A DNA stretch of 64,000 nt from Desulfomarina profundi (lineage in GTDB: Bacteria > Desulfobacterota > Desulfobulbia > Desulfobulbales > Desulfocapsaceae). The notes beneath the pieces were generated by a model that was not told where the DNA came from, searched no databases, and saw nothing but the letters and a program-made list of their open reading frames with translations. Within the stretch, counting starts at the first letter, position 1. Each line of letters opens with the position of its first letter. The stretch is taken from assembly GCF_019703855.1 (NCBI RefSeq), contig NZ_AP024086.1, positions 2,500,501 to 2,564,500 of the forward strand, in the 5' to 3' direction. A program made the translations under genes and the position numbers. Of this stretch, positions 23,487-64,000 are shown one piece after another.

Positions 23487-25472
23487 ATGACTAATTGCAG
23501 GAATATGGGCAGCAACAACAGGGAACAATTCGGCAATAAATATATTCTCCTCGATCTCATCGGCACCGGCGGGATGGCGGAAGTCTATAAATGTAAACTA
23601 CAGGGCAGACAGGGTTTTGAAAAACTCATTGTCCTGAAAAAACTTTTGCCTCACGCCGCACAAGACTCTGAAATTGTAACAAATTTCATCAACGAAGCAA
23701 GACTCGCTGCACTCCTGCAACATGAAAACATAGCCCAGGTTTATGATTTTGGAGAGAGTAAAGGCTCCTATTTTATCGCAATGGAGTACCTCTTTGGCAA
23801 AGACCTGCACAATATTGCCATCAGGGCCAGGAAAACAAAGAAACCAATAGGCCCTGAAAACAGTCTGCTTATTGCCCTGAAAATCTGTGAAGCAATGGAG
23901 TATGCCCACTCCCTCAAAGATCTCCAGAACCAGCCGCTCAACATCATCCACAGGGATCTCAGCCCCCATAATATTTTTATTACTTTCGATGGCAAAATCA
24001 AAATCATTGATTTCGGTATTGCCAGAGCGGAACTCCGCGATACACGAACCAAAATAGGTGTGGTCAAAGGCAAGATCTCCTATATGTCTCCAGAGCAACT
24101 CACCGGCAAGGAAATAGATCACCGTTCTGATATTTTCTCTATCGGTATTCTTCTCTACGAAATGCTGTCTGGAAAACGGATGTACAGTGGTGATACGGCA
24201 ACCCTTATCCGTAAATGCATGCAGGTGGAATATGACACGCTTGAAAAAATCACCCCCGACCTGCCGTCACCTGTATACGACATCCTCCACAAGGCTCTGG
24301 AAAAAGACAGGAGTAAAAGATACCAGTCATGTACACCGATGATTGCGGATATCAGTGAGTGCCTGTTCAGTATAATAGAAAAACCCAATACCCAGAAGTT
24401 AAAACACTATATAAGGGAACTGTTCCGTGATGAATATAATCGGAACAGCAGCAGTCCTGTACAGGACTATGAGAATGGCGAAAAAACAGAGATAGAAACC
24501 ATAATTTCAGATGAATATTCACAACCTGACAATACAGAAAAAACGGAAATTCTCAGAAGAACACCGGAACACAAACGGCAGATGGATGAGACCACAGCAA
24601 ACGATGACAGGTTTCCATTCCACTTTTCAACACGGGGTAAAATCCTGATTGCCGTGTCGCTTCTCTTTATTTCAATCTTTGTCATGTTCAGGTCTGCCGG
24701 CGATGACAAGGTGTTAATAGCTCCTGCACCTCCCAGGCCGCCGGAAAAAACCAGCCGAATTCGTATTTCTCCCCTGCCGAAGGAAACCATTGTCCGGGAG
24801 AAAAAAGAAGCGGCCAGAAAAAATACCATACAAGATCTCCTTAAAAAGGCAGGCCGAGCCTATGGACTCAAGCGGCTGACAAAACCAATAAATGATTCCG
24901 CTTACACTTACTTCAAAAAAGTACTGGAGCTTGATCCAGAAAATCATGAAGCCCATGATGGAATTCATGAAATAGGCAGACAATACCATGAGTTTGCCAA
25001 ATTGGAACTGCAGGCGGGTAATTTTGAAAAAGCAACCGAATTTGTCCAAACCGGCCTTGTAATCATACCGGAAGACCGGGCTCTTCTGGCCACTCAGGTA
25101 AATATAAAGGAAAAGAAGAACCGCTTGCTGGCAGACTTTGAGATGAAGGCGTTGGAAGCCTTGGAGAAAAACAGGCTCTCTACCCCTGAAGGGGACTGTG
25201 CTTATAAATATTATTCTGATATTCTCAGGATAGATAAAGACAATCCAAGGGCACTGCAGGGATTGCGGACAATAAGTGACAGATATGCAGCCCAGGCGGA
25301 AAAAGCTCTTTTAAACCTCAATATGAAAAAGGCGAGATACTATATAAGACAGGGACTGCTTATCACCCCGGACCATAAGCTGCTGCTGGAACTGCAGGAT
25401 GATCTGAAAAGAAGCAAGCCTGGAATATTTTTCAAAAGTCTCAAAAAAGACCTGGAAACTCTTCTAAAATAA
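23487..25472 (+). CDS. membrane Ser/Thr protein kinase with TPR-like C-terminus
   Basis: The 661-residue protein has a Hanks-type kinase domain (about residues 18-290): glycine loop GTGGMAEVYK, catalytic loop HRDLSPHNIF, metal-binding IDFGIAR and substrate-binding SYMSPEQLTG. A single transmembrane helix lies at about residues 386-405. The C-terminal 230 residues are helical with TPR-like repeats (for example YTYFKKVLELDPENHEAHDG and a second similar copy near 575) and should be outside the cytoplasm, where they may sense a ligand or protein. It is divergent from the PP2C gene and convergent with the FHA gene. Confidence 0.92.
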   Translation: MTNCRNMGSNNREQFGNKYILLDLIGTGGMAEVYKCKLQGRQGFEKLIVLKKLLPHAAQDSEIVTNFINEARLAALLQHENIAQVYDFGESKGSYFIAMEYLFGKDLHNIAIRARKTKKPIGPENSLLIALKICEAMEYAHSLKDLQNQPLNIIHRDLSPHNIFITFDGKIKIIDFGIARAELRDTRTKIGVVKGKISYMSPEQLTGKEIDHRSDIFSIGILLYEMLSGKRMYSGDTATLIRKCMQVEYDTLEKITPDLPSPVYDILHKALEKDRSKRYQSCTPMIADISECLFSIIEKPNTQKLKHYIRELFRDEYNRNSSSPVQDYENGEKTEIETIISDEYSQPDNTEKTEILRRTPEHKRQMDETTANDDRFPFHFSTRGKILIAVSLLFISIFVMFRSAGDDKVLIAPAPPRPPEKTSRIRISPLPKETIVREKKEAARKNTIQDLLKKAGRAYGLKRLTKPINDSAYTYFKKVLELDPENHEAHDGIHEIGRQYHEFAKLELQAGNFEKATEFVQTGLVIIPEDRALLATQVNIKEKKNRLLADFEMKALEALEKNRLSTPEGDCAYKYYSDILRIDKDNPRALQGLRTISDRYAAQAEKALLNLNMKKARYYIRQGLLITPDHKLLLELQDDLKRSKPGIFFKSLKKDLETLLK

Positions 25473-25480
25473 GCAGCAGA

Positions 25481-25951
25481 TCAGCCGGTCATCCATTTGA
25501 ATAATTTTGCAAAAAAACCTTTTTTCTCTTCTTCCTGTCCCTCTTCTCCTGAAGGAATTGGCTGACCCTCATTTTTCATGAGTTTCCTGTACTCATTCGT
25601 ATCAAGAATTCTTGTCTTGTCGTCTTGGAACGGATCGTCTTCTCCTCTCTGTTCCTTCATATCTGAACGATCAAAAATCAACTCATGTTTTCCTATCAGA
25701 ATAACATCCCTGTGCCTGAGGTTGTGTACGGTAATTTTTTCCTTGTTAACAAAGGTTCCGTTGGTACTTTCCAGATCCCGCAGAATAAAAGTTGATACCA
25801 CAGATTCAATTCTTGCGTGAAAACCTGAAACGGCAAGATTATCAATCACTATGTCATTGGTTGACTTCCGGCCTATGGTGCAGGTCTGACCGACTCCAAC
25901 CGGGTAATCCCGAATTTCCTTATCCTTAAACCTGAGCGTAATTATTGGCAT
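25481..25951 (-). CDS. FHA domain protein
   Basis: About 156 residues from the ATG at 25951, chosen because GGAGAGCAGGG precedes it. The forkhead-associated domain spans most of the protein and keeps the phosphothreonine-binding motifs IGRKSTNDIVI, VSGFHARI and LESTNGTFVN. A linker rich in charged residues and a basic C-terminus follow. Adjacent kinase and phosphatase genes make it the likely phospho-reader of that pathway. Confidence 0.92.
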   Translation of the reverse strand: MPIITLRFKDKEIRDYPVGVGQTCTIGRKSTNDIVIDNLAVSGFHARIESVVSTFILRDLESTNGTFVNKEKITVHNLRHRDVILIGKHELIFDRSDMKEQRGEDDPFQDDKTRILDTNEYRKLMKNEGQPIPSGEEGQEEEKKGFFAKLFKWMTG

Positions 25952-26091
25952 CCCTGCTCTCCATTCATGAACTGACAAGAGGATTCAAACGATAACAGAA
26001 CAGTCAATATTTCTGCAGAAGCCCCGGAGACAATATCCATATATATACATTTAAACCGGGGCATTTGTGTAAAAGAAAAATAAAACCAATA

Positions 26092-27482: not shown

Positions 27483-27513
27483 TTCAGATAAACCTTCAAC
27501 TATTCGGAATAAT

Positions 27514-27911
27514 ATGGACGGAGAAAAAGAACTGGAAACCCTGCTGCAGACCTTAACACCCAGACTTCATGATAACCTCTATGTGTTCTGTCGGATCGTC
27601 GGGGACAATATGGAGATTACGCTGAAGCCGAACCGCTTGCCTCTTTTATGGAATCCGAAGGTTTGACCCTGGTGGTTAAAAAAAATACAGCCGATGAATT
27701 GAACCTTCCATACAGCGGTCTCTTCAGTTATATCAGCCTCAATGTCCATTCCAGTCTTGAAGCAGTCGGCCTGACCGCGGCCGTCTCAACAAGGCTCAGC
27801 GAACACGGGATCAGTGCCAATATAATCGCAGCTTATACCCATGATCATCTCTTTGTCCCTGCGGATAAAGGAGATGAAGCTCTGCGACTGCTCTTCAGAT
27901 TCTGCTGTTGA
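27514..27911 (+). CDS. ACT-domain protein (DUF2241-like), with apparent frameshift
   Basis: Two frames, 27514 to about 27610 and about 27612-27911, join into one protein of about 132 residues if a base is restored near 27608-27612, giving GDNYGDYAEAEPLASF. The conserved features are EGLTLVVKKNTADEL, then SLNVHSSLEAVGLTAAVSTR, then GISANIIAAYTHDHLFVP, typical of the small stand-alone ACT-domain family. Such proteins are thought to bind amino acids, but the function is unestablished. The gene converges on the radical SAM gene. Confidence 0.75.
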
Positions 27912-29358
27912 TCACCCCATTCTTCTGTTTGTAAAGGCAAAACGAAGAAACGAACGAAGGCCGGAAAGAAAACGCACCCAACTGTCAGGGGATTTCCACA
28001 ACATGGTTATATACCCCCAGATAACCCTGTTGCGCATGAAGTGGTATTTATAGAAATCGATAAACAACTTTTCCATTCTCTCCAGCTCAATTCCCTTCGG
28101 CACAAACTGGAACTGCATGCAGTCCATTCGTTCCCAGTCTTCATTGAAGGTCCCCAGTAATTCTCCCTGCTCCTTGATCTGCCGGTAGACGGGTGAGCCG
28201 GGAAATGGTGTAAACTTGGCCAGGTTAAAATCGTCAATGGGGAGAGAATAGACATACCTGCGACTCTTGAGAATGCTCTGCTCCGTCTCCCCGGGAAGTC
28301 CCATCATCAGCAATCCCTTGACCCTGATTCCGGCTTTCTTGATCATTTCTATCTTTTGCCTCATCATTTGCAGATCAGGGTTCTGGCGGTGTCGGGCAAG
28401 AAGATCCTCGTCCCCGGTTTCAATACCGAGGCTGATCATCCAGCATCCGGCGCCCTTCATCAGGTGCAGCAGTTCCTCATCAAGATGCTCTGCCCGTGCT
28501 GCACAGTTGAACGTCATCTTCAGCGACCCGTCAATCATTTTCCTGCAGAAATCAATAATCCGCTGCCGCTGGAAAGTGAACTGGTCGTCATAAAAATTGA
28601 TATGGCGTATACCGAATCGTTGGTTCAGCCAGGAAACATGTTCATAGAGATACTCTGCGGAATTATAACGAAAACTCCTGCGGAAAACTGATCTGTCGCA
28701 ATAACTGCAGGCATAGGGACACCCCCGACTCGAAATGCAGCTGCCGTTCGGCACCCTGGGATAATTGAAAATAGGCAGTTTATACACTCCGGGGTAACCG
28801 GCAAGTTTTTCATAGGCCGGAAACGGCAGAGAATCAAGATCCAGGAGTTTTTTTCTATACCCGCTAAAACAGGGTCTCCCGCTATCGTTCCGGAAGACTA
28901 TACCTTCCACCCTACTAACATCTTCTGTATTTATAAGCTCCCGCAGCCCCTCTTCCCCTCTCCCACGACACAGAAATCAATGACCGGATACTCCTGCAAA
29001 ACATCTTCTTTTACAGCAGAAACATGCACTCCACCGAACACAACAGTTATCTCCGGAGTCAGTTCTTTTGCCATTTCCGCCAGACGGACTCCATCAAAAA
29101 AACTTGAGGTTGTACAGGAAAAACCGATATGGGACGGCCTGTGTTTCAACAGGTATTCCCTGATCAGGCCATCCGAATCGGGATGGGCATAACAGTCGAT
29201 AATATCGTTTTCAATTCCTCCCTCACTGAGAAATGCGGATATGGAGGCCAGCCCCAGTGGCGGCATGATATTGGCCATCCTCGAAATATCATCCTTGGCA
29301 TTTTTCGCACTGTACCCAAGGGGTGGATAAGGAGTATTCTTTTTTCTCCGTTTTTCAT
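27912..29358 (-). CDS. B12-binding radical SAM protein, with two apparent frameshifts
   Basis: Three frames read as one protein of about 482 residues after adding one base near GGGG 29320-29323 and one near CCCC 28955-28958. The N-terminus (RILLIHPLG, then PPLGLASISAFL and VVFGGVHVS) is a cobalamin-binding Rossmann domain. The catalytic domain has the cluster motif SSRGCPYACSYCDRS (CxxxCxxC), a GIETGDE SAM-contact strand and KGLLMMGLPGETEQSI. Members catalyse radical methylation, cyclisation or other C-C chemistry. It follows the ketosynthase gene on the same strand with almost no spacing (stop at 29363, start at 29358), so it likely acts on an acyl chain made by this operon. Confidence 0.85.
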
Positions 29359-29362
29359 CGAT

Positions 29363-30469
29363 TTAAAGGGAGGTAAAATAGAGCAGGGTATTAATTCCGC
29401 CAAAACCGGAATTGCTGCTGATAATTGATGGGTGACGCAGGGGAAGCGGTTCAGGGGAAAGCAGACACTCCGTTTCCTCGGCGATCTCAAGACCGACCGT
29501 GGACGGCAACACCCCATGTTCAAGGCTCAAAGTGCTGATAAGCGCCTCCACAACTCCGGTGCCGCCAAGACTGTGCCCAAGAGCACCCTTACCTGAACAG
29601 ACCGGGACCCCCGCCCCGCATTTTTCCATAAAGGCAAGCAGTTCCATGGCATCATTGTATACTGTCCCTGTTCCATGCCCGTTAATGCCGCCGACAGGAA
29701 CAACCTCTTCTTGAAAAAGCGTGTCAAAAGCCTGTTTCAGACCACTGCCATACCGGCAGGGTGCCGTGATATGGGTTGCGTCACAGGAAACAGCCCAGCC
29801 GGAAAGACAGGCCCGGAAATCACACGAAGCCAGGTCTGCCACCTCTTCCGCCTCCAGCAGCAACCAGCCCGCTCCGTCTCCGAGACAGAGCCCACGACGA
29901 TTTCTGTCAAAGGGCTTTGCCGCATCGGGGGACAGGGCCTTCAGGCTGTCAAACCCGGCTAGTACAAACTCCGCCACCAGGTCAAAACCGACAACAAGTG
30001 CCCGGTCACACTCACCTGAACTTACAGCCAGTCCGCCCTGAATTACAGCAAGGCTGCCTGAAGCACAGGCGCCGCTGACCATTGTAGCCTCATCTTCCAG
30101 CCCCAGAATTCCACAAAGATAGTCGGCGACCTGCCAGGGATTACCCTTGTTTCTCCCCTTTCCCGGCAACCACTCATCTATGGCACCCTTTGTTGTGGCG
30201 CAGAACAGGCGTGTTTCAGAAGGTAATCCAGGTAGAGAGCCAAAAAGGCGGTCAAGCACGACACGAAGGCGTTGCCAGTCACCGGGGCCATAGGGTTCCG
30301 GCCCGACACCCGTCTCCGGAATGATCCCAAGCGGCCACTCCCCGGCAAGGGACCCGAAAGGCTGTTTAACAACACCACTTTCCCCGGCAATAAGGCCGTC
30401 CCAGGTCTCCCGAAGATTTCCAAGAGGAGTTAATGTATCTCCTACGCTCACCACAACTCTTCGTTTCAT
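29363..30469 (-). CDS. beta-ketoacyl-ACP synthase (FabF/FabB-like)
   Basis: A 368-residue ketosynthase with the full Cys-His-His triad: VSGACASGSLAVIQ, NGHGTGTVYND and ALGHSLGGTGVVEA. It should condense acyl and malonyl units on an acyl carrier protein. It is somewhat shorter than typical FabF (about 410), which is common in aryl-polyene-type clusters. The start at 30469 overlaps the thioesterase stop by four bases (ATGA), so the genes are translationally coupled. Confidence 0.88.
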   Translation of the reverse strand: MKRRVVVSVGDTLTPLGNLRETWDGLIAGESGVVKQPFGSLAGEWPLGIIPETGVGPEPYGPGDWQRLRVVLDRLFGSLPGLPSETRLFCATTKGAIDEWLPGKGRNKGNPWQVADYLCGILGLEDEATMVSGACASGSLAVIQGGLAVSSGECDRALVVGFDLVAEFVLAGFDSLKALSPDAAKPFDRNRRGLCLGDGAGWLLLEAEEVADLASCDFRACLSGWAVSCDATHITAPCRYGSGLKQAFDTLFQEEVVPVGGINGHGTGTVYNDAMELLAFMEKCGAGVPVCSGKGALGHSLGGTGVVEALISTLSLEHGVLPSTVGLEIAEETECLLSPEPLPLRHPSIISSNSGFGGINTLLYFTSL

Positions 30470-30936
30470 AGTACAAACTCCCCGGTTCGCCATCTGTTCC
30501 TGAACTGCTGGAGCCATTCCGGGACAACCAAGAGAACAGTTCCATCGACCTCGGTGAGCAGCTGGACGGTATAGCCCGATGCGGCCACAGCCCCTTTCGC
30601 ATTATAAATCATATAGGAGAAATTCAATTTGGCCGAATCTGTCCAGTGCAGGGTTGTTCTAATTTTCATGGTCTCATCAAAACGCAGGGGAACCTTATAA
30701 TCCAGGTGCATCTGGACGACCGGAGCAACTGTTCTGTTTTCCCTGAAACTGTGATAAGTCAGACCGAAAACATCCCCGAAACGTATACGACCATCCTCCA
30801 GGTAACTGGGATATCGTCCGTGCCAGACCATACTCAAACCGTCAACTTCCTCAAAACGGACCCGCCGCTCACATTCGGTTGACAGGGGCGGCGGGTCACC
30901 CTCAACAGCTGGAAAATATTCTCTGGAAAAACCCAT
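30466..30936 (-). CDS. 4HBT-type acyl thioesterase
   Basis: A 156-residue single-hotdog protein. VRFEEVDGLSMVWHGRYPSY followed by LEDGRIRFGDVFGL is the hallmark of the 4-hydroxybenzoyl-CoA thioesterase group, with the catalytic Asp in the first strand-loop. Equivalent thioesterases in aryl-polyene clusters release or edit acyl-ACP intermediates. The start at 30936 was chosen because it lies three bases from the dehydratase stop. Confidence 0.85.
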   Translation of the reverse strand: MGFSREYFPAVEGDPPPLSTECERRVRFEEVDGLSMVWHGRYPSYLEDGRIRFGDVFGLTYHSFRENRTVAPVVQMHLDYKVPLRFDETMKIRTTLHWTDSAKLNFSYMIYNAKGAVAASGYTVQLLTEVDGTVLLVVPEWLQQFRNRWRTGEFVL

Positions 30937-30938
30937 AG

Positions 30939-31361
30939 TCAATCCTGTCCACCTTCTGTTGTTCCAACCTGCACAAAGACACACTGTCCACTGGCAATAA
31001 CTCCGGCTTCACCTTCCAGGAAAAACTTCCCGTGCCAGCCGTCTTCTTCCTGCTCCTGTAATACGATCTCTGCCTCAACCTGCTGTTCCGGAACTATCAT
31101 ACCGCGAAACTTCGTACGACTGTATGTCTGCGGCTTGAGACGTTGACCAAGACTCTCTTCCGCCAGAAAGCGGACTATACCAAGCTGCATGACAGCAGGC
31201 AGAATGGGATGGCCCGGAAAATGACCGGCAAAACCGGCATAGTCGCGGGAAAAAAGAAAACTCCCCCGCACAACAGTCTTCCCGCTATCCCTTTTCTCCA
31301 CTGTCAGACCCAGGCAGGTGTTTGTAAGAGAAGAATAGAGTGACTTATACTGTTTTTCCAT
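30939..31361 (-). CDS. 3-hydroxyacyl-ACP dehydratase (ApeI/FabZ-like)
   Basis: A 140-residue hotdog protein with the motif AGHFPGHPILPAVMQL, matching FabZ/ApeI thioester dehydratases, with the catalytic His in GHFP. It should dehydrate 3-hydroxyacyl-ACP to enoyl-ACP during chain extension. The longer upstream frame has no signature, so the ATG at 31361 was taken. It is the second gene of the minus-strand operon, between a methyltransferase gene and the thioesterase gene. Confidence 0.85.
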   Translation of the reverse strand: MEKQYKSLYSSLTNTCLGLTVEKRDSGKTVVRGSFLFSRDYAGFAGHFPGHPILPAVMQLGIVRFLAEESLGQRLKPQTYSRTKFRGMIVPEQQVEAEIVLQEQEEDGWHGKFFLEGEAGVIASGQCVFVQVGTTEGGQD

Positions 31362-31425
31362 AGTGACTCCAAAATAACTTAATCTTGCAAAACAAATTTT
31401 TGGGATATTCAGGGCCCTGATTTTA

Positions 31426-31974
31426 TTACAACACCCAGGGAATAAACATTTTTGTCCGTCGCATATAATCCTCATAAGAGGTCCCGAAAAACCTGATATT
31501 CTCATCCTCCTCAACCCGGGCCGTCGCAAAAAGGAAAAGCGTCACCAAGCCGATCAGGCATATGTTCAACAGGGTAATCCGTTTAAGAAATGCCCCCCAT
31601 CCGAGGAACAGCAGGGAAGCATACATGGGGTGGCGAACAAAACGGTACAATCCGGTTTCAACAATATTGACCGTATTTTCAAAGTCATGGTTACCCGGCA
31701 TATCACCTCGATGGCCATGCCCTCCTTCTTCCTTGAGTTTCTTCAGGGATAAAACAATAAAAACAATCGACAGGGCCAACAACAGCCAGGCCAGCAAATG
31801 TACCGGACTGAAGGGTCTTTTAAACCAGACAGGCTGGTTAAGAAGGAGAAGGGCCACAATTCCTTCAAAGGCAAAAAAACGATAAAAACCATGTACCCTG
31901 AAATCTCTCAAAGCTCTCCAGGAAAAGCAGATCAAGAGAAATGTACAGAGAATGAAAACTGCTCCACGAACCAT
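31426..31974 (-). CDS. membrane methyltransferase, ICMT/PEMT-like
   Basis: About 182 residues with four or five hydrophobic segments. The C-terminal catalytic motif of the isoprenylcysteine / phospholipid methyltransferase group is present: RHPMYASLLFLGWG, then ARVEEDENIRFFGTSYEDYM. The ATG at 31974 has AAGGAA upstream. It is the first gene of the minus-strand lipid operon, which suggests methylation of a carboxylate, phosphate headgroup or phenol in the pathway product. That is inference. Confidence 0.8.
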   Translation of the reverse strand: MVRGAVFILCTFLLICFSWRALRDFRVHGFYRFFAFEGIVALLLLNQPVWFKRPFSPVHLLAWLLLALSIVFIVLSLKKLKEEGGHGHRGDMPGNHDFENTVNIVETGLYRFVRHPMYASLLFLGWGAFLKRITLLNICLIGLVTLFLFATARVEEDENIRFFGTSYEDYMRRTKMFIPWVL

Positions 31975-32324: not shown

Positions 32325-32759
32325 ATGAAGATTGACGAAGTTCCCCAGGATAACGGTATGATCGCCGATCACGGCCATGAAATCTGCTATGCCGTAGATG
32401 AAAACGGTCGCTACAGACTTGTACCCAGCCTTGGATGGGAAGCCAAAAATATTGTTAATGATCAGGCGTGGGAAGTGATCAGCAGCGAAGCTGAAAAAAT
32501 GTACACCCTGGCCAAAAAGGGAAAGGTCAGCCCCCTTGCTTACTACCAGGTAAAACACCAGATGGACCTGACTCTTCTTGCCAAATATGTTTCCCTGCCG
32601 AGATGGCGGGTACGCAGACACATGAAACCGGCTGTTTTTCATAAACTGCCGACCAGAATTTTACAAAAATACTGCTCTGTTTTTGGTATTTCCATGGATG
32701 AACTACTCAACCTCCCGGAATCATTTTCACACCAGCAGGTAAAGAACCGATTGACATAA
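32325..32759 (+). CDS. conserved hypothetical, possible HTH protein
   Basis: A 144-residue protein without a signal peptide. The C-terminal half (LTLLAKYVSLPRWRVRRHMK, then LQKYCSVFGISMDELLNLP) has the spacing of a Cro/XRE-like helix-turn-helix. It may regulate the downstream BtrH-ABC genes. I do not recognise a specific family. The following gene starts 24 bases later. Confidence 0.55.
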   Translation: MKIDEVPQDNGMIADHGHEICYAVDENGRYRLVPSLGWEAKNIVNDQAWEVISSEAEKMYTLAKKGKVSPLAYYQVKHQMDLTLLAKYVSLPRWRVRRHMKPAVFHKLPTRILQKYCSVFGISMDELLNLPESFSHQQVKNRLT

Positions 32760-32782: not shown

Positions 32783-33784
32783 ATGATAGAATTTCACCAC
32801 AGACAATCCGCCCACTGTGAAAGCGGCGTCACCTCCAATCTTCTTTATTTTTACGGTGTTGACTGCTCGGAGGCTCTGGCATTCGGCATCGGCGACGGAT
32901 TGTTTTTCGGTTACCTGCCTTTTATCCGCGTCAACAAACTGCCACTGACCACTTTCAGGTGTTCAGTGGGAACTATTTTCAACAAGGTCAGTAAACGGCT
33001 GGGTGTGACAGTCAGACGAAAAAAGTTCCGATCCCCCGCAAAGGCAATGGACGAACTGGACAAAAAGCTCGACCAGGGGATTCCCGTGGGCTGTCAGACC
33101 GGGGCCTACTGGCTGCCCTATTTCCCGCCTGCTTTTCGTTTTCATTTTAACATGCACAATCTTGTCGTCCTCGGCAGGGAGGGAAGTGATTATATCATCA
33201 GCGATCCCGTGTTTGACGATCTTGTCCGCTGCCACAGGAGCGATCTCATCAAGGCACGTTTTGCCAAAGGTGCCCTGGCACCAAAAGGGGCCATGTATTA
33301 CCTTGAACATGTCCCAGACTCTCCGGATATACAACAAGCCGTGGCAACAGGGATTACCTCAGTCAGTAAAATCATGCTGAAAACCCCGGTTCCTTTTCTC
33401 GGGGTCCGGGGAATCAATTTCCTGGCAAACAGGTTGGCCGGCTGGCCGAAAAAACTTGGAGCCGAAAACGCGGCCCTCCATCTTGGTCAACTTATACGGA
33501 TGCAGGAGGAAATCGGCACGGGCGGCGGAGGATTCCGCTTTATTTACGCGGCGTTTCTTCAGGAAGCAGCCGCCGTTCTTGAAAAACAGGAACTTGCAAG
33601 GCTCTCGAATCAAATGACTCTCACGGGAGATAAATGGCGGGGTTTTGCCACCCTTGGAGCAAGAGTCTGCAAGGGCAGGGCAAAGGATGAAGATGTCTAT
33701 GACAGACTGGCAGACATGCTGCGGGAATGTGCACAACAGGAGACAGCCATCTACCGGGAACTGGGAGAAATTGCCGCCCTATGA
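32783..33784 (+). CDS. BtrH N-terminal-domain protein
   Basis: The 333-residue protein matches the BtrH N-terminal family, with [20 protein letters not shown] at the start and [12 protein letters not shown] shortly after. The Cys is the candidate acyl-transfer nucleophile, and a conserved His occurs in [12 protein letters not shown]. BtrH transfers an acyl chain from an acyl carrier protein in butirosin biosynthesis; homologues sit next to ABC transporters in dialkylresorcinol / flexirubin-type clusters of Bacteroidetes. Its role here is probably acyl transfer onto the pathway product. The stop overlaps the ATPase start by four bases. Confidence 0.8.
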
Positions 33785-34544
33785 ACAGCCGAAAGAGAAA
33801 TATCCTCCTGACAGCAGAAAATGTGTCCATGACCTACCCGAAGACACCGGGGCCGGCCCTGGATCATATTTCTCTTACCATCAGAAAAGGAGAGCTGCTT
33901 GGCCTTATCGGCCCGAACGGCGCCGGAAAAACAACTCTCATTTCCATCCTCTCCACCCTCTTTCCCCGACTGAGGGTGATCTGTTTTTTGAGAATGTTAA
34001 CATGGTGCAGGATCCGGACAGTATCCGCCCGAAAATAGGCCTGGTTCCCCAGGAAACCGCCCTGTATGAAAACCTGACCGGCAGGGAAAACCTGTCTTAT
34101 TTTGCAAGCCTCTATGGACTGAAGAAAAAAAAGGCCCGCTCCCAAACGGATCACTATCTCAAAATGTTCGGCCTCGGGGAAAAAGCGGACAGCAGAATCA
34201 AAACCTATTCCGGCGGCATGAAGAGAAGAATCAATCTGATTGCGGGGCTTCTCCATAAACCTGACCTGCTCTTCCTCGATGAGCCCACGGTGGGCATTGA
34301 CGCCCAATCGAGAAACCTCATTATGGAAAAACTCCTGCTTCTCCATGAACAGGGGATGACCATGATTTACACAACACATTATATGGAAGAGATAGAAAAA
34401 ATCTGCGAAAAAGTCGCCATTATAGACCAGGGAAAAATCATCTGCCAGGGAAACCCCGCCACCCTTGTAAGTGAGAGCCCCGGCTGCTCTGATCTCTCGG
34501 AACTCTTTTTTGCCAGAACCGGAAAAGCCCTCAGGGATTTTTAA
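33781..34544 (+). CDS. ABC transporter ATP-binding protein, with apparent frameshift
   Basis: Frames 33781 to about 33966 and about 33968-34544 join into one ATPase of about 254 residues when a base is restored in CCCC at 33964-33967. The Walker A motif GPNGAGKTT is before the break. After it are the Q-loop VPQETALY, the signature YSGGMKRR, Walker [13 protein letters not shown] and the H-loop TTHYMEE. It pairs with the downstream ABC-2 permease and, given the BtrH-like gene upstream, is likely to export the acylated product or its precursor. Confidence 0.85.
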
Positions 34545-34550
34545 CCAGCC

Positions 34551-35852
34551 ATGAAACTCCTTGCCTCCATCAACAAAGAACTGCTTCTCCTCACCAGGGA
34601 CCGGGCCGGGCTCATTCTCCTCTTTATCATGCCAGCCTTTCTGGTGATTATCATTACCCTTATTCAGGATCAGGTCACCACAACCTCAGCCAAAATTCTA
34701 TTTGTGGACAGGGACGGGGGGTTTGTGGCAAAAGAAATAAAAAAAACACTGCTCAACAGCTCCAACTTCAAACTGATCGAAACACTGGAAGGTAAACCGG
34801 TGACTCCCGGGCAGGCCGAGAAACTGGTGGCCGGAGGTCAATTTCATTTTTCCATCGTTCTGCCGGAACATCTCAGTCGCGACATCGAGAAAAAGAGCGA
34901 TTTTCTCGCCAGAAAGAAATTATTCCCGGCAACAGGACAGAAACCGCAAGTGGAAAAGCCGGCCATCACGGTCTGGTTTGACCCCACGGTTCAGGGCAGT
35001 TTCCGGGCAGCACTCAATTCTTCCCTGCAGGCTATCATCAAGGGGCAGGAAATACAGTTGACGGTAAAAAAATTCTTTGCCCTGCTTCCGGAAAAAATTC
35101 AAGCGTCTCTTCCACCCGGCATGAAGTCTTTAGCGCCCAACCCCCTTTCAACCGCCGATTTTTCAATACCTGAACTTTTTACCGATTCCACATTTACCCA
35201 CATAGAACAACGCTTTGCAACGAAAATGGGATTCTCCGTACAACCGACACCTGTACAGCAGAATGTACCGGCATGGACCATTTTCGGGATCTTTTTTATT
35301 GTTCTCCCCCTTGCGGGTTCAATCATTTCAGAACGGAACTCGGGCACACTGAAACGGCTCAGAATCATGCCTGTAAGCTACTTCACCGTCATGGCCGGTA
35401 AACTGACAGCCTTTACACTGATAAGTCTCTCCCAGTTCGCTGTTATTCTTCTTGCAAGCTGGTATATCCTGCCCCTTTTCGGGGTCGAACGATTCGATGC
35501 AGGCACAGAACCCCTCGCTTTTGCCGTTGTCCTTCTGGCTGTAATCTGTGCCGCCAACGGTTACGGGATCTTTCTCGGCACGTTCTGCAGGACCTATGAA
35601 CAGGTCTCCATGTTTGCCCCCGTCTCAATTGTCATCGCCGCCGCCATAGGTGGAGTCCTGGTTCCGGTCTACGCCCTGCCCGACTTTATCAGGCCCCTGT
35701 CAATCCTTTCCCCTCTCTACTGGGGCCAGGCCGGGTTTTATGATCTGCTCCTCCGCCAGGGGGATCTCTTTTCCATACTGCCCGAGGCGGGCGCACTCTC
35801 CGGGTTTGGAATACTACTGTGCATTATTGCACTGGCCCGTAATCGTGGATAG
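34551..35852 (+). CDS. ABC-2 type permease
   Basis: 433 residues with an N-terminal transmembrane helix (LILLFIMPAFLVIIITLIQ), a large extracytoplasmic domain to about residue 235, and five further helices in the C-terminal part, containing GSIISERNSGTLKRLRIMP, the typical ABC-2 intracellular loop. It starts seven bases after the ATPase gene. Substrate is unknown; lipid or polyketide export is suggested by the neighbours. Confidence 0.88.
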   Translation: MKLLASINKELLLLTRDRAGLILLFIMPAFLVIIITLIQDQVTTTSAKILFVDRDGGFVAKEIKKTLLNSSNFKLIETLEGKPVTPGQAEKLVAGGQFHFSIVLPEHLSRDIEKKSDFLARKKLFPATGQKPQVEKPAITVWFDPTVQGSFRAALNSSLQAIIKGQEIQLTVKKFFALLPEKIQASLPPGMKSLAPNPLSTADFSIPELFTDSTFTHIEQRFATKMGFSVQPTPVQQNVPAWTIFGIFFIVLPLAGSIISERNSGTLKRLRIMPVSYFTVMAGKLTAFTLISLSQFAVILLASWYILPLFGVERFDAGTEPLAFAVVLLAVICAANGYGIFLGTFCRTYEQVSMFAPVSIVIAAAIGGVLVPVYALPDFIRPLSILSPLYWGQAGFYDLLLRQGDLFSILPEAGALSGFGILLCIIALARNRG

Positions 35853-38156: not shown

Positions 38157-38732
38157 GAAGGTTAAAACCTTCGCCTTTTAGGCGAATAGCATTTTGCTAG
38201 CGGTTGCTTTATAATGCCTCCGTATGAAATATCGCCAAGGGAGTCATACGAACTTTAAAATCGAGTATCACTTTGTTTGGGTCACGAAGTATCGGTATCA
38301 CATGCTTCAGGGAGACCTCGCTCTTCGTGTTCGGGAGCTCGTCCGTCAAACATGTGAACGATTTGAAATCCAGATTCTGCGGGGCGTGGTTAGTAAAGAC
38401 CATGTGCATATTCTTGTTTCTGCTCCTCCGACTATTTCTCCCTCTGAGATAATGCGTAGGGTCAAAGGAAGGGTGTCCCGCAAGATATTTGAAGAGTTTC
38501 CGCATGTGAAAAAGCGCTATTGGGGGCGACATTTTTGGGCTCGTGGTTACTTTTGTGTAACATCGGGGGAGCTGACCAAAGAAATGATCCAGGAGTATCT
38601 GGCTCATCACTTTGAAAGAGATCCCGATGACAAATTTGATATTGAATAACCGGCTGCGTGAGCCTGCCGGTATTGCTGGACTTTCAGTCCGCGAAGATTA
38701 AACCCACCCACTTCAAGTGGGTGGTTGTTTAG
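38157..38732 (+). mobile_element. IS200/IS605-type element (TnpA only)
   Basis: About 576 bp, boundaries approximate. The left end has hairpins GAAGGTTAAAACCTTC and CGCCTTTTAGGCG; the right end has the hairpin CCCACCCACTTCAAGTGGGT extending to GG, followed by TTGTTTAGTT. No terminal inverted repeats or target duplications are expected for this family. It carries a single transposase gene and interrupts a lipoprotein gene. Confidence 0.8.
38224..38649 (+). CDS. tnpA: IS200/IS605 family Y1 transposase TnpA
   Basis: A 141-residue protein, full length for the family. DHVHILVSAPP supplies the HUH metal-binding pair, and the C-terminal helix TKEMIQEYLAHHF contains the catalytic Tyr. It should act on single-stranded DNA at the hairpin ends of its element. 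A TATAAT box at 38210-38215 lies just upstream of the start. No tnpB accompanies it. Confidence 0.92.
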   Translation: MKYRQGSHTNFKIEYHFVWVTKYRYHMLQGDLALRVRELVRQTCERFEIQILRGVVSKDHVHILVSAPPTISPSEIMRRVKGRVSRKIFEEFPHVKKRYWGRHFWARGYFCVTSGELTKEMIQEYLAHHFERDPDDKFDIE

Positions 38733-41853: not shown

Positions 41854-42126
41854 ATGGCGTACAAGGACATTCAGGGCCTTGAAAAGGAGCTGCTGGATCT
41901 GATACTTTCAACTTGTGAGCGAGACAAAGAAGACGCAGCAGATATGAACTGCGATTCGCCCCTGATCGGCCCTGAATCAATTCTTGGACTGGACTCCCTG
42001 GATGCAGTTGAAATCGTGTCTCTCATCCAGACCCATTTCGGTGTCCGTATCACATCAAAGGAAACCAGTGTGGAAGTTTTAAATTCTCTTGCCACTATCG
42101 CCGATTATATTCGGGTCAACAGATAG
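41854..42126 (+). CDS. acyl carrier protein
   Basis: A 90-residue acidic ACP with the phosphopantetheine attachment site ILGLDSLDAVEIV (Ser in GLDSL). A good ribosome-binding site (CTGGAG) precedes the ATG at 41854. It is the first gene of a five-gene plus-strand operon with chain-length-factor-like, radical SAM, KAS III and KS genes, so it is the probable carrier of the growing chain. Spacing to the next gene is three bases. Confidence 0.92.
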   Translation: MAYKDIQGLEKELLDLILSTCERDKEDAADMNCDSPLIGPESILGLDSLDAVEIVSLIQTHFGVRITSKETSVEVLNSLATIADYIRVNR

Positions 42127-42129
42127 AAA

Positions 42130-43206
42130 ATGAGTTGTACAATTACAGGAATCGGCGTTGTGGGAGCTTTCGGCACCAACCTGAAGGAGATGGTAGAATC
42201 GGTAGCTCAGGCGGAAAGCAGACCGGAACTCCTGTCCTGGCACGAAAAGCATCATATGCCTGTATTCAAGGCAAAAACAGATGGAATTGCAGAGTTTTTT
42301 CCCAAAAACCTCCTGCGACGAACCGATCACTTCTCAAAGATGGCTCTCCTGGCAGCCTCTCTGGCAATTCAGAAGTACGAAGAACAGGAAAAGTGTTCCG
42401 GTGATGACACCGGAATAATAGTGGCTACCGGGTACGGCAGTATCACCTCTACCTGTCGGTTCAAGGATTCTGTTTTTGCAAGTGAAGACAAGGGCCCGTC
42501 CCCCCTGCTGTTTTCCAGGTCCGTTCATAATCAGGCGGCATCACATCTGGCGATCCTGTTGGGTATTACCGGCCCCAATCTCACTGTAAGCCAGCATTAT
42601 CTTTCCTTCCACAGTGCCGTACAGACAGCCTGTCTCTGGCTTGCGGAACGAAGAGTGAAACGGGTGCTGGTCGGCGGAATTGATGAATTTGACACAATCC
42701 TTGCTTACAGCCGGAAACGATTTATAAAAAACAATATGGGAAAATATGCTGACCCCGCTCTCCAGGATCTCAATTCGATCCCCGGAGAAGGAGCTGGTTT
42801 TTTCCTGCTTGAAAAAGATAAGAGAAAAAAAGGTTCAACTCTCAAAATGCCGGTAATTGGCCGGATAACCCGAAAGAGCTTTGAAAGAAAGGAAAAATTG
42901 GGAAAAACAATCTGCTACGATTATTCCCGGTCGGAGGCTGTCATGGATAAACCAGCATGGCTGGATCCAATGGCTCGGAAACAACAGAGTAATGTAGATC
43001 CGACTGCGACCGCAAGATTTTCAGATAAACCGGACAGACAAACAGATTCGCGACGCTTCTACGGAGAATTCCCCACTGCGGCCGCCCTCGATCTTGCCTT
43101 TGCCCTGGCCACGACCCCAACGGGACAGAGTGTCTCCTGTATCCAGATCACCAGAGAAAAGTGCTATGGTGTTATACAGGCAACCGCGACTCAACCGATA
43201 CTATGA
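42130..43206 (+). CDS. ketosynthase-like protein lacking the catalytic Cys (chain-length-factor type)
   Basis: A 358-residue protein with the thiolase-fold N-terminal half of ketosynthases (GIVVATGYGSITSTCRFKDS, RVLVGGIDEFD). The active-site segment reads TVSQHYLSFHSAVQTA instead of ACASG, so the nucleophile is lost. The usual HGTGT and GHTLGAAG histidine motifs are not found either. Inactive KS partners of this sort serve as chain-length factors in type II polyketide and aryl-polyene systems. It probably pairs with the FabF-like KS at 45695. The stop overlaps the radical SAM start (ATGA). Confidence 0.8.
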   Translation: MSCTITGIGVVGAFGTNLKEMVESVAQAESRPELLSWHEKHHMPVFKAKTDGIAEFFPKNLLRRTDHFSKMALLAASLAIQKYEEQEKCSGDDTGIIVATGYGSITSTCRFKDSVFASEDKGPSPLLFSRSVHNQAASHLAILLGITGPNLTVSQHYLSFHSAVQTACLWLAERRVKRVLVGGIDEFDTILAYSRKRFIKNNMGKYADPALQDLNSIPGEGAGFFLLEKDKRKKGSTLKMPVIGRITRKSFERKEKLGKTICYDYSRSEAVMDKPAWLDPMARKQQSNVDPTATARFSDKPDRQTDSRRFYGEFPTAAALDLAFALATTPTGQSVSCIQITREKCYGVIQATATQPIL

Positions 43207-44513
43207 AAATTCTTCTCATCAATCCCCCAAACAGCGGCAGGTCAATTCCTGAAGAAGAGTTTGGAATCACCTCCATTAAACTGATCTTTCGGGGAGAACC
43301 CCTGGCCCTTGAAACCCTGGCAGGCAACCTGCCGGGTCACGACGTGGTTATCGCCGATCTTAAAGCTGATCCCCACTGCCTGGAAAATATTCTAGAAGAT
43401 TTCGGTCGGCCGGATATCGTCGGACTGACTGGTGTGACCTGCGAGGCCAATGCCGTTCTGTCACTGGCCCGGGATATAAAAAAACGCTGTCGGCCAGACA
43501 ATCCCGTTACAGTTGTAGGAGGACATCATGCCTCCTGCGACCCCGGCTATTTCAACCGGGAACATATAGATTTTGTTGTTACGGGCCTGGGCAAGGCGAC
43601 TTTCGCCAACCTGGTGCACCATCTGGAACAAAAAAAATCTCCGGACAGAATCCCCGGCCTGGCCAGGGTCAGAAAAGGACGACCGCTGGCAATCAATCCC
43701 AAACGATACAGTACTGAAGATATAGTCGACACAATGCCACCGCGCTATGACCTGGTTGCCGATTACAGGGACAGGTATGTCATGAGCGGAGTGGGGGGCA
43801 AAGTCGGCTTTGTTTCCACCGCTTTCGGCTGTACCCACTGCTGTTCCTTCTGTACGATTCCCTCGCTTACCGGAGGCCGTTACATTTCCCATTCCTGCGA
43901 ATCAATCCTGAGAGATATTGATATGTTGGAAGATGTCTCCCTGATCCGTTTTGTCGATGCCAACACCTTTGGTGACATTGCCATGGCCCGGGAACTTGCA
44001 CAAACACTGATTGACCGGGGAATAAAAAAACGATTTGTGGCAGACGTCCGAGCCGATACAGTGGTCAATCACCCGCAGATTATGAAACTGTGGGCCGAAG
44101 CTGGTCTTGTTTCCGTTGTTATCGGTTTTGAAGAGATCAATGACGACCGACTTGCCATGCTGAATAAAAAAAGTACCAACCGTGCCAACATAAAGGCCCT
44201 GGAAATCCTGAAAGAACTGGACATCAGGGTCATCGGCGATTTTATTATCTCGCCTGATTACGGTTATGAAGAATTCGAGGCTCTGGACAATTTTATCAAT
44301 TACTACCAGATAGACCTGCCGGTGCCGTCAATTCTTACTCCGATTCCGGGTACTCCACTCCATCGACGCTTGAAAAATGAGATTGCAATAACTGATCTCG
44401 ATTATTATACATTTTCAAATGCTGTACTGCCGACTCAATTGAGCAGAAAAGCATTTTACACAACGTATTCGGCCATAATGAAGAAACTGCACAGTCATAT
44501 AAAAAACTCCTGA
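43203..44513 (+). CDS. B12-binding radical SAM enzyme
   Basis: A 436-residue protein. The N-terminal domain (KILLINPPNSGRS, VIADLKADPH, TVVGGHHASC) is a cobalamin-binding fold. The radical SAM motif is FGCTHCCSFCTIPS (CxxxCxxC), with a SAM-contact stretch VIGFEEINDD. Enzymes of this class methylate or rearrange unactivated carbons. Being coupled to an ACP and ketosynthases, it likely modifies an ACP-bound chain. A second radical SAM gene of this class lies at 27912-29358. Confidence 0.88.
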   Translation: MKILLINPPNSGRSIPEEEFGITSIKLIFRGEPLALETLAGNLPGHDVVIADLKADPHCLENILEDFGRPDIVGLTGVTCEANAVLSLARDIKKRCRPDNPVTVVGGHHASCDPGYFNREHIDFVVTGLGKATFANLVHHLEQKKSPDRIPGLARVRKGRPLAINPKRYSTEDIVDTMPPRYDLVADYRDRYVMSGVGGKVGFVSTAFGCTHCCSFCTIPSLTGGRYISHSCESILRDIDMLEDVSLIRFVDANTFGDIAMARELAQTLIDRGIKKRFVADVRADTVVNHPQIMKLWAEAGLVSVVIGFEEINDDRLAMLNKKSTNRANIKALEILKELDIRVIGDFIISPDYGYEEFEALDNFINYYQIDLPVPSILTPIPGTPLHRRLKNEIAITDLDYYTFSNAVLPTQLSRKAFYTTYSAIMKKLHSHIKNS

Positions 44514-44542: not shown

Positions 44543-45691
44543 ATGGATGTCTACATAAACAGTCTTGCTTCATTTCTGCCCAACAACCCGGTTACCAATG
44601 ACGAAATTGAAAATGTCCTTGGAACCATCAATGATATTCCGTCCCGTACCAGACAGAGAATCCTGAACAATAATAAAATTAAAACCCGGTACTATGCCAT
44701 TGATCCCGACAGTGGGAAATTCACCCATACCAATGCGCAACTGACTGCCGAAGCGGTAAAAAACCTGAGCGCTGCCGGACGATTTTCCCTGGAAGAGGTT
44801 GAATGCCTCTGCTGTGGCACTTCCAGTCCCGATCTGTTGATGCCGGGTCACGGGGTAATGGTCGCGGGAGAACTGGCCCTGCCACCCTGCGACGTGGTCA
44901 CCACCTCGGGAATCTGTATTGCCGGGATTACAGCCCTGAAGCACGCCTGCATGAATGTGGCCACAGGCTGCACGAAAAATGGTATTGCCACCGGCTCAGA
45001 GCTGGCATCCTCCTTTATGCGGGCCGGTTTTTTCCATGTTGATGCGGACCCGGAAGCGGATATCAAAAAGAAACCGATCCTTGCCTTTGATACCGACTTT
45101 CTCCGCTGGATGCTCTCCGATGGTGCAGGAGCGGCCTGGGTCAGTCGTCAAAAAAATGAGAAAGGACTCTCCCTGAGAGTAGAATGGATAGAGCATCGCT
45201 CCTATGCCGGGGAATTGGACACCTGCATGTACGCAGGGGGATTGAAACTGGATGCCGGAAGAATCAAGGGTTGGCGGGAAATGGAAAGCAGTATGGAGGC
45301 TGCAGGCTTAAACTGCCTGGCTGTAAAACAGGATGTCAGGCTTCTGGATGCCCATATTGTCTCAACCGCCATGGACAGGACACTCACTGCAGTTGCTGAA
45401 AAACATAAGCTGAAGCCCGAACAGATCGACTGGTACCTGCCCCATTATTCTTCCCATTTTTTCAGGGACAGATTCTATGAAGGTATGAAACGGGCCGGAT
45501 TTGAAATCCCTTACGAAAAGTGGTTCACCAACCTCTACCAGGTTGGTAATATCGGCAGTGCCTCCATTTACCTGATCCTGGAAGCACTCTTTTATTCGGA
45601 CAAAGTGAAAGATGGAGATACCATTCTCTGTTTTATTCCGGAAAGTGGCCGGTTCGCCCACAGCTTTATGCTGCTGAGTGCAGTATATTAG
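44543..45691 (+). CDS. KAS III-like condensing enzyme (DarB-like)
   Basis: A 382-residue KAS III homologue with the Cys-His-Asn triad: TTSGICIAGITALKHA, WYLPHYSSHFF and NLYQVGNIGSAS. The opening (YINSLASFLP, NKIKTRYYAIDPDSGKFTHT) and CLCCGTSSPDLLMPGHGVMV resemble the DarB-type enzymes of dialkylresorcinol / flexirubin clusters. DarB joins two acyl chains; whether this one does so, or starts a chain, cannot be told. A DarA-type cyclase gene was not found in the window. Confidence 0.85.
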   Translation: MDVYINSLASFLPNNPVTNDEIENVLGTINDIPSRTRQRILNNNKIKTRYYAIDPDSGKFTHTNAQLTAEAVKNLSAAGRFSLEEVECLCCGTSSPDLLMPGHGVMVAGELALPPCDVVTTSGICIAGITALKHACMNVATGCTKNGIATGSELASSFMRAGFFHVDADPEADIKKKPILAFDTDFLRWMLSDGAGAAWVSRQKNEKGLSLRVEWIEHRSYAGELDTCMYAGGLKLDAGRIKGWREMESSMEAAGLNCLAVKQDVRLLDAHIVSTAMDRTLTAVAEKHKLKPEQIDWYLPHYSSHFFRDRFYEGMKRAGFEIPYEKWFTNLYQVGNIGSASIYLILEALFYSDKVKDGDTILCFIPESGRFAHSFMLLSAVY

Positions 45692-45694
45692 ACC

Positions 45695-46882
45695 ATGACT
45701 ACCGCCCGTCACCCGGAAAATAAGGAGATCAAAGGTATAGGCTGCCTCTGTGCCCTCGGGGGAGATCTGCCAACCTGTATGAAAAATCTCTATTCAGGAA
45801 AACGAAAGAACGGACTACCAACAGGTTTTACAACAGACAGACCCGATACTTACCCCGTCTTTGAGACTGACAACAACCATATCCGCTATGGACCTGATTC
45901 AACAGAATTGAGCCGTACAGCCAGGCTGGCCCTGAGTGCTGCGGAGGAGGCAATCCGGGACAGCGGATTTTCCCGTGATGAGCTCAGCTCAATGCGGGTG
46001 GGTGTTGCGGTGGGAACCACTGTCGGAAGCACCCTGAACAACGAGAACTTTTATCGTCGATTCTGTAATGGAGAACATCCCGAACTCCTTGAAATAAACC
46101 GCTTTCTTAACTCCAACCCTGCGGAGGCCATATCCAGGGAGTTCGAATTAAACGGCCCGGTACAGACAGTGGTGAATGCCTGCTCGTCCGGTGCGGACGC
46201 TATCGGCATCGGCATGTCATGGCTGGATGCGGGTCTCTGCGACCTGGTCATCGCCGGCGGTGCTGATGAACTCAGCCGTATTTCCTACCTGGGTTTTATT
46301 TCACTGATGATCAGTGACCCGGAACCCTGCAGACCATTTGACAGAACAAGGCAGGGGCTGAACCTGGGTGAAGGTGCCGCCATGCTCCTGCTCTCAAAAA
46401 AACAACCGAAAAACCAAAGCGGCAGATACTGTGAACTCGCAGGCTATGCATCTGCCTGCGATGCCTATCACCTGACCGCCCCTCATCCGCAGGGCAATGG
46501 CTTGAAAAAAGCTCTGAACAGCATTCTACAGAAAACTGGTGATCCTCTTGAAAATATAGCATTTGTCAATGCACACGGGACCGGAACCCAAGATAATGAC
46601 AAGGTGGAAATGCAGGTTCTCTCCGAACTGCTTCCCGGAATCCCCTACTTCAGTATCAAGGGAGGGACAGGACATACCCTTGGGGCAGCGGGGGCTATTG
46701 AAGCGGCAGTTACCGCAGCCTGCCTCGTCAGAGGACAGATTCCCGGTTCGATCGGTTTCTCTGTTGCTGAAAAAGACACCCACCCGCCCCTTGAAAACAA
46801 TGCAGAAATTACCAGGAGATTCGCCATTTCCCAGTCACTGGCCTTTGGAGGCAATAACGCGGTTCTGTTGTTCAAACGATAA
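45695..46882 (+). CDS. beta-ketoacyl-ACP synthase (FabF-like)
   Basis: A 395-residue ketosynthase with a full catalytic set: VVNACSSGADAIGIGMSW (Cys), VNAHGTGTQDNDKVE (His) and GGTGHTLGAAGAIEA (His). It starts three bases after the KAS III gene and closes the operon. Its inactive partner is probably the Cys-less protein at 42130, as in KS-CLF heterodimers. Confidence 0.9.
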   Translation: MTTARHPENKEIKGIGCLCALGGDLPTCMKNLYSGKRKNGLPTGFTTDRPDTYPVFETDNNHIRYGPDSTELSRTARLALSAAEEAIRDSGFSRDELSSMRVGVAVGTTVGSTLNNENFYRRFCNGEHPELLEINRFLNSNPAEAISREFELNGPVQTVVNACSSGADAIGIGMSWLDAGLCDLVIAGGADELSRISYLGFISLMISDPEPCRPFDRTRQGLNLGEGAAMLLLSKKQPKNQSGRYCELAGYASACDAYHLTAPHPQGNGLKKALNSILQKTGDPLENIAFVNAHGTGTQDNDKVEMQVLSELLPGIPYFSIKGGTGHTLGAAGAIEAAVTAACLVRGQIPGSIGFSVAEKDTHPPLENNAEITRRFAISQSLAFGGNNAVLLFKR

Positions 46883-59525: not shown

Positions 59526-59538
59526 CCTGCACCTCCTT

Positions 59539-63754: not shown

Positions 63755-63761
63755 ATTTTTT

Positions 63762-64000
63762 TCACACCAGAAGTCTGCACCGAACAGCAGCAGATGGTGC
63801 CCTGACCAGACACTCCAGAGAAGCTCTGCCATTCACCATCTCTTTCGTTAAAATCCTGCCTGGTGCCAGCGGGTCAGGGCAGTCACATCTCTTTTCATTA
63901 TTAAAAATCATCTCCCCAAAATTCTTCGGGAAGCATTCCGTCTTTTCAGGAATTCCCGCTTCCACTGAAACCTTTTCAAGGAGCCATCCCCTTTCCTGGT
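63762..64000 (-). CDS. partial ORF running off the window, upstream of fabG-like gene
   Basis: An open frame continues from beyond 64000 to a stop at 63762, eight bases before the FabG start. It encodes about 79 residues ending RASLECLVRAPSAAVRCRLL and V. I do not recognise the family. Position suggests another gene of the same pathway. Confidence 0.4.
   Translation of the reverse strand, partial: QERGWLLEKVSVEAGIPEKTECFPKNFGEMIFNNEKRCDCPDPLAPGRILTKEMVNGRASLECLVRAPSAAVRCRLLV

Follow-up and report, generated by a model that had tools for sequence, protein, structure and literature searches.

A radical SAM-containing operon of Desulfomarina profundi as a likely fragment of an aryl-polyene and dialkylresorcinol pathway

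The operon and its larger locus

Positions 27912-31974 of a 64,000-nt stretch of the Desulfomarina profundi genome (NZ_AP024086.1; hereafter the window, in which all coordinates are given) carry a minus-strand operon in which a B12-binding radical S-adenosylmethionine (rSAM) enzyme is encoded beside enzymes of the type II fatty-acid synthesis (FASII) kind. Its five genes are a piece of a larger locus, not a self-contained pathway. From its gene content, the operon of this anaerobic desulfobacterium is likely a fragment of an arcuflavin/flexirubin-type pathway, combining aryl-polyene (APE) and dialkylresorcinol (DAR) synthesis; such a pathway, with a recurring set of rSAM enzymes, is probably common to many anaerobic sulfate- and metal-reducing bacteria. 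Gene content, active-site conservation and a recurring neighbourhood in relatives are direct observations. The locus is of a known kind, and the proposed product class is what is new.

The larger locus comprises 27.9-46.9 kb and 59-78 kb, the latter running past the window end (64-78 kb lies beyond it, in stretch L008). An APE-type core is present, consisting of a beta-ketoacyl synthase (KS), a half-KS or chain-length partner, an acyl carrier protein (ACP), a ketoreductase (KR), a dehydratase and a thioesterase, with ACPs assigned by eye and by similarity. LolA, an MMPL exporter and an acyltransferase (Lip_A_acyltrans) are present above their Pfam cut-offs; glycosyltransferase models fell below theirs. 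The DAR features found are an StlD/DarB ketosynthase, DarH and a DarG-family protein, all above model cut-offs. An earlier reading of the operon, made from its sequence alone, had proposed aryl-polyene and type II fatty-acid enzymes; this is supported, and is extended by the surroundings (DarB, DarH, DarG family, ABC transporter, LolA, MMPL and KR). The operon itself is read as follows.

31426-31974, minus strand: PEMT/ICMT-type membrane methyltransferase (PEMT 37.4 bits, cut-off 25; ICMT 25.7 bits, cut-off 24; Pfam)
30939-31361, minus strand: FabA/ApeI-like dehydratase (FabA 26.2 bits, cut-off 23; ApeI-like 17.8 bits, below its cut-off of 28.5)
30466-30936, minus strand: 4HBT-type thioesterase, ApeK-like by position (4HBT_2 58.2 bits)
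29363-30469, minus strand: KS (Ketoacyl-synt_C 61.4 bits, ketoacyl-synt 57.4 bits)
27912-29358, minus strand: B12-binding/rSAM enzyme, split gene (B12-binding 76.0 bits, Radical_SAM 86.5 bits)

Pfam cut-offs were exceeded for PEMT, ICMT, FabA, 4HBT_2, both the N- and C-terminal ketoacyl-synt models, B12-binding and Radical_SAM. The sequence-only reading had described five tightly spaced or overlapping minus-strand genes, and their order, limits and spacing stand on frames and Pfam matches, with successive gaps from methyltransferase to rSAM of 64 nt, 2 nt, a 4-nt overlap (ATGA) and 4 nt; the rSAM gene, however, is not one open frame. In alignments of the operon's own sequences with relatives picked by score and length, KS residues C135, H265, K294 and H299 were unchanged in 42/42 rows, dehydratase H47 in 39/39 and thioesterase D32 in 43/43, own sequence included in each case. 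We take these to be the catalytic residues.

The methyltransferase heads the operon in D. profundi. No homologue was detected by tblastn in any of the 80 rSAM loci (the best 80 of 120 relatives from a genome-contig scan), and the gene was therefore considered as a foreign one. This idea was dropped because homologues, found in 31 of 91 genomes of the family (own included), sit in related clusters. In four fetched regions (L136, L137, L141 and L142) they adjoin a gene with weak similarity (24-28% identity) to the oxidase at 76.9 kb, and in L136 and L141 they also adjoin DAR genes; thus, the methyltransferase is probably part of the wider pathway.

The following genes complete the locus inside the window, together with one rSAM gene beyond its end.

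32325-32759, plus strand: DarG-family protein (NF053536 158 bits, cut-off 70)
32783-33784, plus strand: DarH, a BtrH-related acyltransferase (NF053550 470.5 bits, cut-off 300)
33727-34544, plus strand: ATPase of an ABC transporter, with a frame break near 33.96 kb (ABC_tran)
34551-35852, plus strand: ABC-2 permease (ABC2_membrane_3 130 bits)
41854-42126, plus strand: ACP, assigned by eye (tblastn relatives follow an ABC permease in many loci)
42130-43206, plus strand: half-KS, chain-length-factor-like (fabF model matches residues 4-189 only)
43161-44513, plus strand: second B12-type rSAM (Radical_SAM, B12-binding; best model HpnR, 156.7 bits, cut-off 650)
44543-45691, plus strand: StlD/DarB-family ketosynthase (NF005293 541.7 bits, cut-off 450)
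45695-46882, plus strand: FabF-like ketosynthase (PRK09185 272 bits, below its cut-off of 407)
58986-59582, minus strand: small gene following the exporter, lipoprotein-like by position (a similar-looking ORF lies in the same place in L045, by eye)
59539-61941, minus strand: MMPL-family exporter (MMPL 41.1 bits, cut-off 20.5)
61904-62737, minus strand: LolA-like carrier (LolA 73.6 bits; LolA2_flexi 109.5 bits, cut-off 125)
63020-63832, minus strand: FabG-type KR (FabG 285.4 bits, cut-off 273; FlxB 268.9 bits, cut-off 340)
69.0-70.4 kb: TIGR04072 'lipid biosynthesis' rSAM (604 bits, cut-off 360)

The DarG-family, DarH, ABC ATPase and ABC-2 permease genes are divergent from the operon. An IS200/IS605-family transposase (38224-38649) separates the DarB genes from the DarG-DarH-ABC group. 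The half-KS may act as a working chain-length factor. The small lipoprotein-like gene had no NCBIfam match. Besides the exporter, carrier, KR and TIGR04072 genes, 59-78 kb holds a KS, an ACP, an LpxL-like acyltransferase, a glycosyltransferase, another B12-type rSAM and a half-KS, followed by an rSAM with SPASM-family matches, an FlxY-like ligase, a PlsC-type acyltransferase, a further ACP and KS, and at 76.9 kb a weakly phytoene-desaturase-like oxidase; the ACPs and the last KS (76.15 kb) were assigned by eye and similarity. In total, the locus carries three B12-type rSAMs in addition to that of the operon, one of them above the TIGR04072 cut-off. The gene at 63762-64535 was considered as a FabA but rejected: it had no NCBIfam match at 1e-5, is weakly similar to half-KS proteins, and was excluded from the APE-gene count.

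Recurrence in relatives

Among the 80 rSAM loci, at least three APE-like genes were found in 57, and in 29 of the 38 loci flanked by at least 5 kb on either side; these are raw counts of tblastn matches at 1e-6, in which KS paralogues and short-chain dehydrogenases/reductases are therefore interchangeable. Immediately upstream of the rSAM gene (within 1.5 kb, same strand) lies a TIGR04072-like rSAM in 40 of the 80 loci, a KS in nine, other genes in 12 and none in 19. In Desulfuromusa kysingii (L114) the neighbourhood lies on one strand, in the order LolA, MMPL, dehydratase, thioesterase, KS, half-KS, three rSAMs, a glycosyltransferase/acyltransferase fusion of 710 aa, KS, half-KS, DarG, DarH and ABC; the operon-type rSAM is the third of the three consecutive rSAM genes. 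DarB, the ligase and the oxidase were not found within the 21 kb of that region. In L045 and similar relatives, LolA and MMPL precede dehydratase-thioesterase-KS-rSAM, whereas D. profundi has the two blocks apart. In Desulfamplus magnetovallimortis (L063, 7713-9308), an aromatic amino acid ammonia-lyase directly precedes the rSAM relative; it scored higher with HutH (492 bits) than with FlxA (456 bits), both below cut-off.

The distribution across the phylum was surveyed in an even sample of 394 genomes. At E 1e-80 the rSAM was found in 59, of which 31 form a close clade (at least 469 bits, 61-100% identity) and 28 score lower, with 41-51% identity except for one partial match at 62%. A TIGR04072 match of at least 480 bits, a threshold we chose at a score gap (the curated cut-off is 360), occurs in 29 genomes and DarH in 39. 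The former is found in 27 of the 31 close-clade genomes against 2 of the 363 others, and the latter in 20/31 against 19/363; because the genomes are related, these counts are not independent and their Fisher values overstate the significance. The close rSAM and TIGR04072 genes are neighbours in 14 of the 27 genomes and lie on different contigs in seven. Within the distant rSAM group, DarH is also present in eight of the 28 genomes.

Product class

For the scheme that follows, we infer every reaction, the order of the steps and the product. An AMP ligase would load an aryl starter onto an ACP, and KS enzymes with half-KS partners, the KR and the dehydratase would extend it to a polyene, while the thioesterase would edit or release acyl groups. 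DarB would condense two acyl units to a DAR skeleton, which DarH, as a BtrH-type acyltransferase, may link to the polyene. The B12-type rSAMs, that of the operon included, probably modify polyene or DAR intermediates while these are bound to ACP, whether by C-methylation or by some other radical chemistry; a late, hydrophobic intermediate may be capped by the membrane methyltransferase. The sequence-only reading had suggested that the product may bear added methyl branches, rings or rearranged carbons. The ABC, LolA and MMPL proteins would carry the product to the envelope.

Much of this gene set has a counterpart in Azoarcus sp. BH72, where arc and dar genes make the polyene-resorcinol pigment arcuflavin (PMC3949708). 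As described there, the two systems share in kind KS, a half-KS (a protein with only the N-terminal KS part), dehydratases, KR, AMP ligase, ACP, glycosyltransferase, acyltransferases, LolA, an exporter, darB, a BtrH-like acyltransferase, an ABC ATPase and permease, and a methyltransferase; unlike the present locus, the gene table of that paper contains no rSAM. Among its entries are darA and a XanB2-type chorismatase (PMC3949708). The flexirubin flx/dar clusters of Bacteroidota (PMC3992019) have homologues here of DarB, DarH, DarG, FlxY, FlxB and LolA2 by NCBIfam models, but several cut-offs are missed here, LolB2_flexi is absent, no ammonia-lyase lies near the cluster and the rSAM set is extra. 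With the APE clusters of E. coli and Xenorhabdus, ApeI/K/L/M/J/O/C/Q-like functions are held in common; in the gene table of that study, ApeB is a SAM-dependent methyltransferase and neither rSAM nor DAR genes appear (PMC8253772). A type I polyketide synthase aryl polyene has also been described (PMC12144888). The expectation in the sequence-only reading that classical APE clusters are without B12-rSAM enzymes agrees with the literature, as the term 'radical SAM' is absent from the main text of PMC8253772, PMC3949708, PMC3992019 and PMC8358021. In the literature searched, no pairing of 'flexirubin' with 'radical SAM' was found, nor any assignment of rSAM-bearing FASII clusters to the polyene-resorcinol class.

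The combination of FASII and rSAM genes is not new, since Rattray et al. described such clusters in 2009 in Kuenenia and Desulfotalea, naming a B12 domain in one rSAM, and noted similar ones in Geobacter and Pelobacter (PMC2649909). By description, these share with the present locus FASII genes, several rSAMs, a phenylacetate-CoA-ligase-like ligase, a glycosyltransferase, a phytoene-dehydrogenase-like oxidase and a membrane protein compared there to Mmp proteins. They were read as genes for polyunsaturated fatty acids or ladderanes; the sections of the paper drawn on here make no mention of DAR genes, and in those sections the product of the Desulfobacterota clusters was left open (PMC2649909).

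A competing explanation follows from that work: the locus might make an unusual polyunsaturated or ring-bearing membrane lipid by a 'ladderane-like' FASII pathway, with the rSAMs acting on fatty acyl-ACP, and no aryl polyene at all. It can call on the 604-bit TIGR04072 'lipid biosynthesis' rSAM at 69.0-70.4 kb, on the rSAM, phenylacetate-CoA-ligase-like, glycosyltransferase and weakly phytoene-desaturase-like genes, which recall the Kuenenia/Desulfotalea set when compared by description (PMC2649909), and on 'ladderane' calls by antiSMASH in Desulfobacterota (PMC9902471). Yet DarB, DarH, a DarG-family protein and an ABC transporter share the same locus here, as in DAR clusters, and Desulfotalea yielded no ladderanes under the conditions reported (PMC2649909); we therefore regard the membrane-lipid explanation as unlikely. 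The polyene-resorcinol assignment has evidence weighing against it as well. The DarB exception model is missed (467.6 bits, cut-off 550), as are the flexirubin cut-offs for DarG (145.7 bits, cut-off 170), LolA2 (109.5, cut-off 125), FlxY (404.8, cut-off 520) and FlxB (268.9, cut-off 340), and nothing in the genome matches LolB2_flexi at E 0.001; for these reasons the locus is not filed as a flexirubin cluster, a label that was tried with the curated models and rejected. The sole ammonia-lyase detected in the genome is 0.32 Mb away from the window, so that no starter-making gene is identified in the cluster. Nine of the 38 well-flanked loci are without three APE-like genes; other pathway genes are present in five of them (L056, L063, L092, L100 and L110), and the remaining four (L083, L088, L120 and L121) show no pathway gene beyond matches of at most 30% identity. 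Finally, 11 of the 31 close-clade genomes are without DarH, and the curated TIGR04072 cut-off is reached by 90 of the 394 genomes, of which 63 carry no close-clade rSAM (27/31 against 63/363).

The polyene-resorcinol and membrane-lipid readings overlap, as the same genes may bear different names in each. A bolder extension, which we offer tentatively and think more doubtful than probable, is that the 'ladderane-like' clusters of Desulfobacterota are anaerobic APE/DAR pathways whose usual tailoring is supplemented or replaced by three or four different B12-type rSAMs. The products would be polyene-resorcinol lipids that are C-methylated or cyclised, and in that case the rSAMs of the anammox ladderane pathway would be common to it and to pigment biosynthesis. 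Placing the locus in the polyene-resorcinol class gives a direct prediction that cultured relatives can test, namely a polyene ester that is coloured and perhaps methylated. It is also relevant to the possible use of related rSAM enzymes by anammox bacteria.

The operon's rSAM enzyme and its broken frame

By its sequence, the operon's rSAM carries the features of the cobalamin-dependent radical SAM class, namely a B12 domain and a CX3CX2C cluster motif whose cysteines (C222, C226 and C229) are unchanged in 39 intact aligned homologues. Candidate memberships in the HpnJ, BchE, AprD4 and TIGR04072 families were rejected. The intact homologue L045 scored far below the NCBIfam cut-offs for HpnJ (166 bits, cut-off 578), BchE (187, cut-off 481), Sden_1168 (182, cut-off 575), AprD4 (100, cut-off 500) and TIGR04072 rSAM_ladder_B12 (92.3, cut-off 360), and the other homologues would likewise fall short (best E among all 39, 2e-59 with HpnJ). 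In a tree, the operon rSAM groups neither with HpnJ nor with the locus's three other B12-rSAM families, albeit with long branches and support of 92/66 for the rSAM group; five of the six HpnJ rows form their own clade, and the sixth, L132, is a wrongly extracted frame to be ignored. Placement by phylogeny in a well-characterised, unrelated family, which the sequence-only reading had named as the finding that would count against it, was thus not observed.

The predicted fold of the rSAM (mean pLDDT 83.7) matches AprD4 best among PDB entries (sequence E 6e-28; fold Z 29.0, rmsd 3.1, 404 residues aligned), followed at Z ~24 by OxsB, CysS, TsrM and MgmA. AprD4 works without cobalamin. OxsB, CysS, TsrM and MgmA are cobalamin enzymes. 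With AprD4 as the best match and cobalamin enzymes next, methylation, the usual guess for such an rSAM, is one candidate reaction. The enzyme could instead be a cobalamin-independent radical dehydratase or redox enzyme like AprD4, as the top match by both sequence and fold would suggest; given a B12-binding domain of 76 bits and the cobalamin enzymes among the next fold matches, and as fold alone does not decide the cofactor, we consider this a possibility with the odds somewhat against it. An AprD4-like activity is compatible with either pathway, polyene-resorcinol or membrane lipid.

The rSAM gene spans three frames: an N-terminal stretch from 29358, a B12 ORF at 28931-29278 and an rSAM ORF at 27912-28910, with one base apparently lost at each junction, near 29.31 kb and near 28.95 kb. 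A search of the family gave rSAM matches in 27 of 93 genomes, own included. Twenty-five of the 26 other matches lie in open frames of 458-627 aa, the weakest of which (30% identity) may belong to another family; the remaining match is partial and lies in a frame of 247 aa. The frame change at 28.95 kb is read across by 90 of 103 relatives' rSAM ORFs, that in the ABC ATPase at 33.96 kb by 20 relatives' ORFs, and that in the KS at 76.15 kb by nine. An ilvE-type branched-chain aminotransferase (52496-53400) is also interrupted where one base appears to be missing from a G run, its two halves matching the start and the end of a single aminotransferase model; this points to systematic indel error in the assembly. 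Altogether, six breaks (27.58, 28.95, 29.31, 33.96, 52.9 and 76.15 kb) are each consistent with the loss of a single base within or next to a G/C run; those at 27.58 and 29.31 kb were read by eye, the latter also from aligned homologues.

These breaks could alternatively be real, with the pathway being lost in D. profundi. The rSAM has two of them, the ABC ATPase and the KS at 76.15 kb have one each, the cluster order is unlike that of relatives, and the IS200 transposase stands at 38.2 kb. Decay would have to be reconciled with the G/C-run pattern of every break, with a housekeeping ilvE split likewise, and with four other operon enzymes that are open, three of them with the expected active-site residues; we judge it improbable. 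Because the rSAM is open in 25 of the 26 other family matches and ilvE is broken in the same way, an assembly problem of this single-contig 4.31 Mb genome appears likelier than decay. Further flags of the frame scan, at 32.76 kb (one DarG-DarH fusion ORF), at 59.52 kb (one ORF) and in a few antisense ORFs, were rejected as breaks.

Two minor features flank the operon. Downstream, a small ACT-like protein (27513-27911) is apparently broken near 27.58 kb, by eye. Beside the operon, 23487-25978 encodes a Ser/Thr-kinase-like protein and a convergent FHA-like protein, also read by eye.

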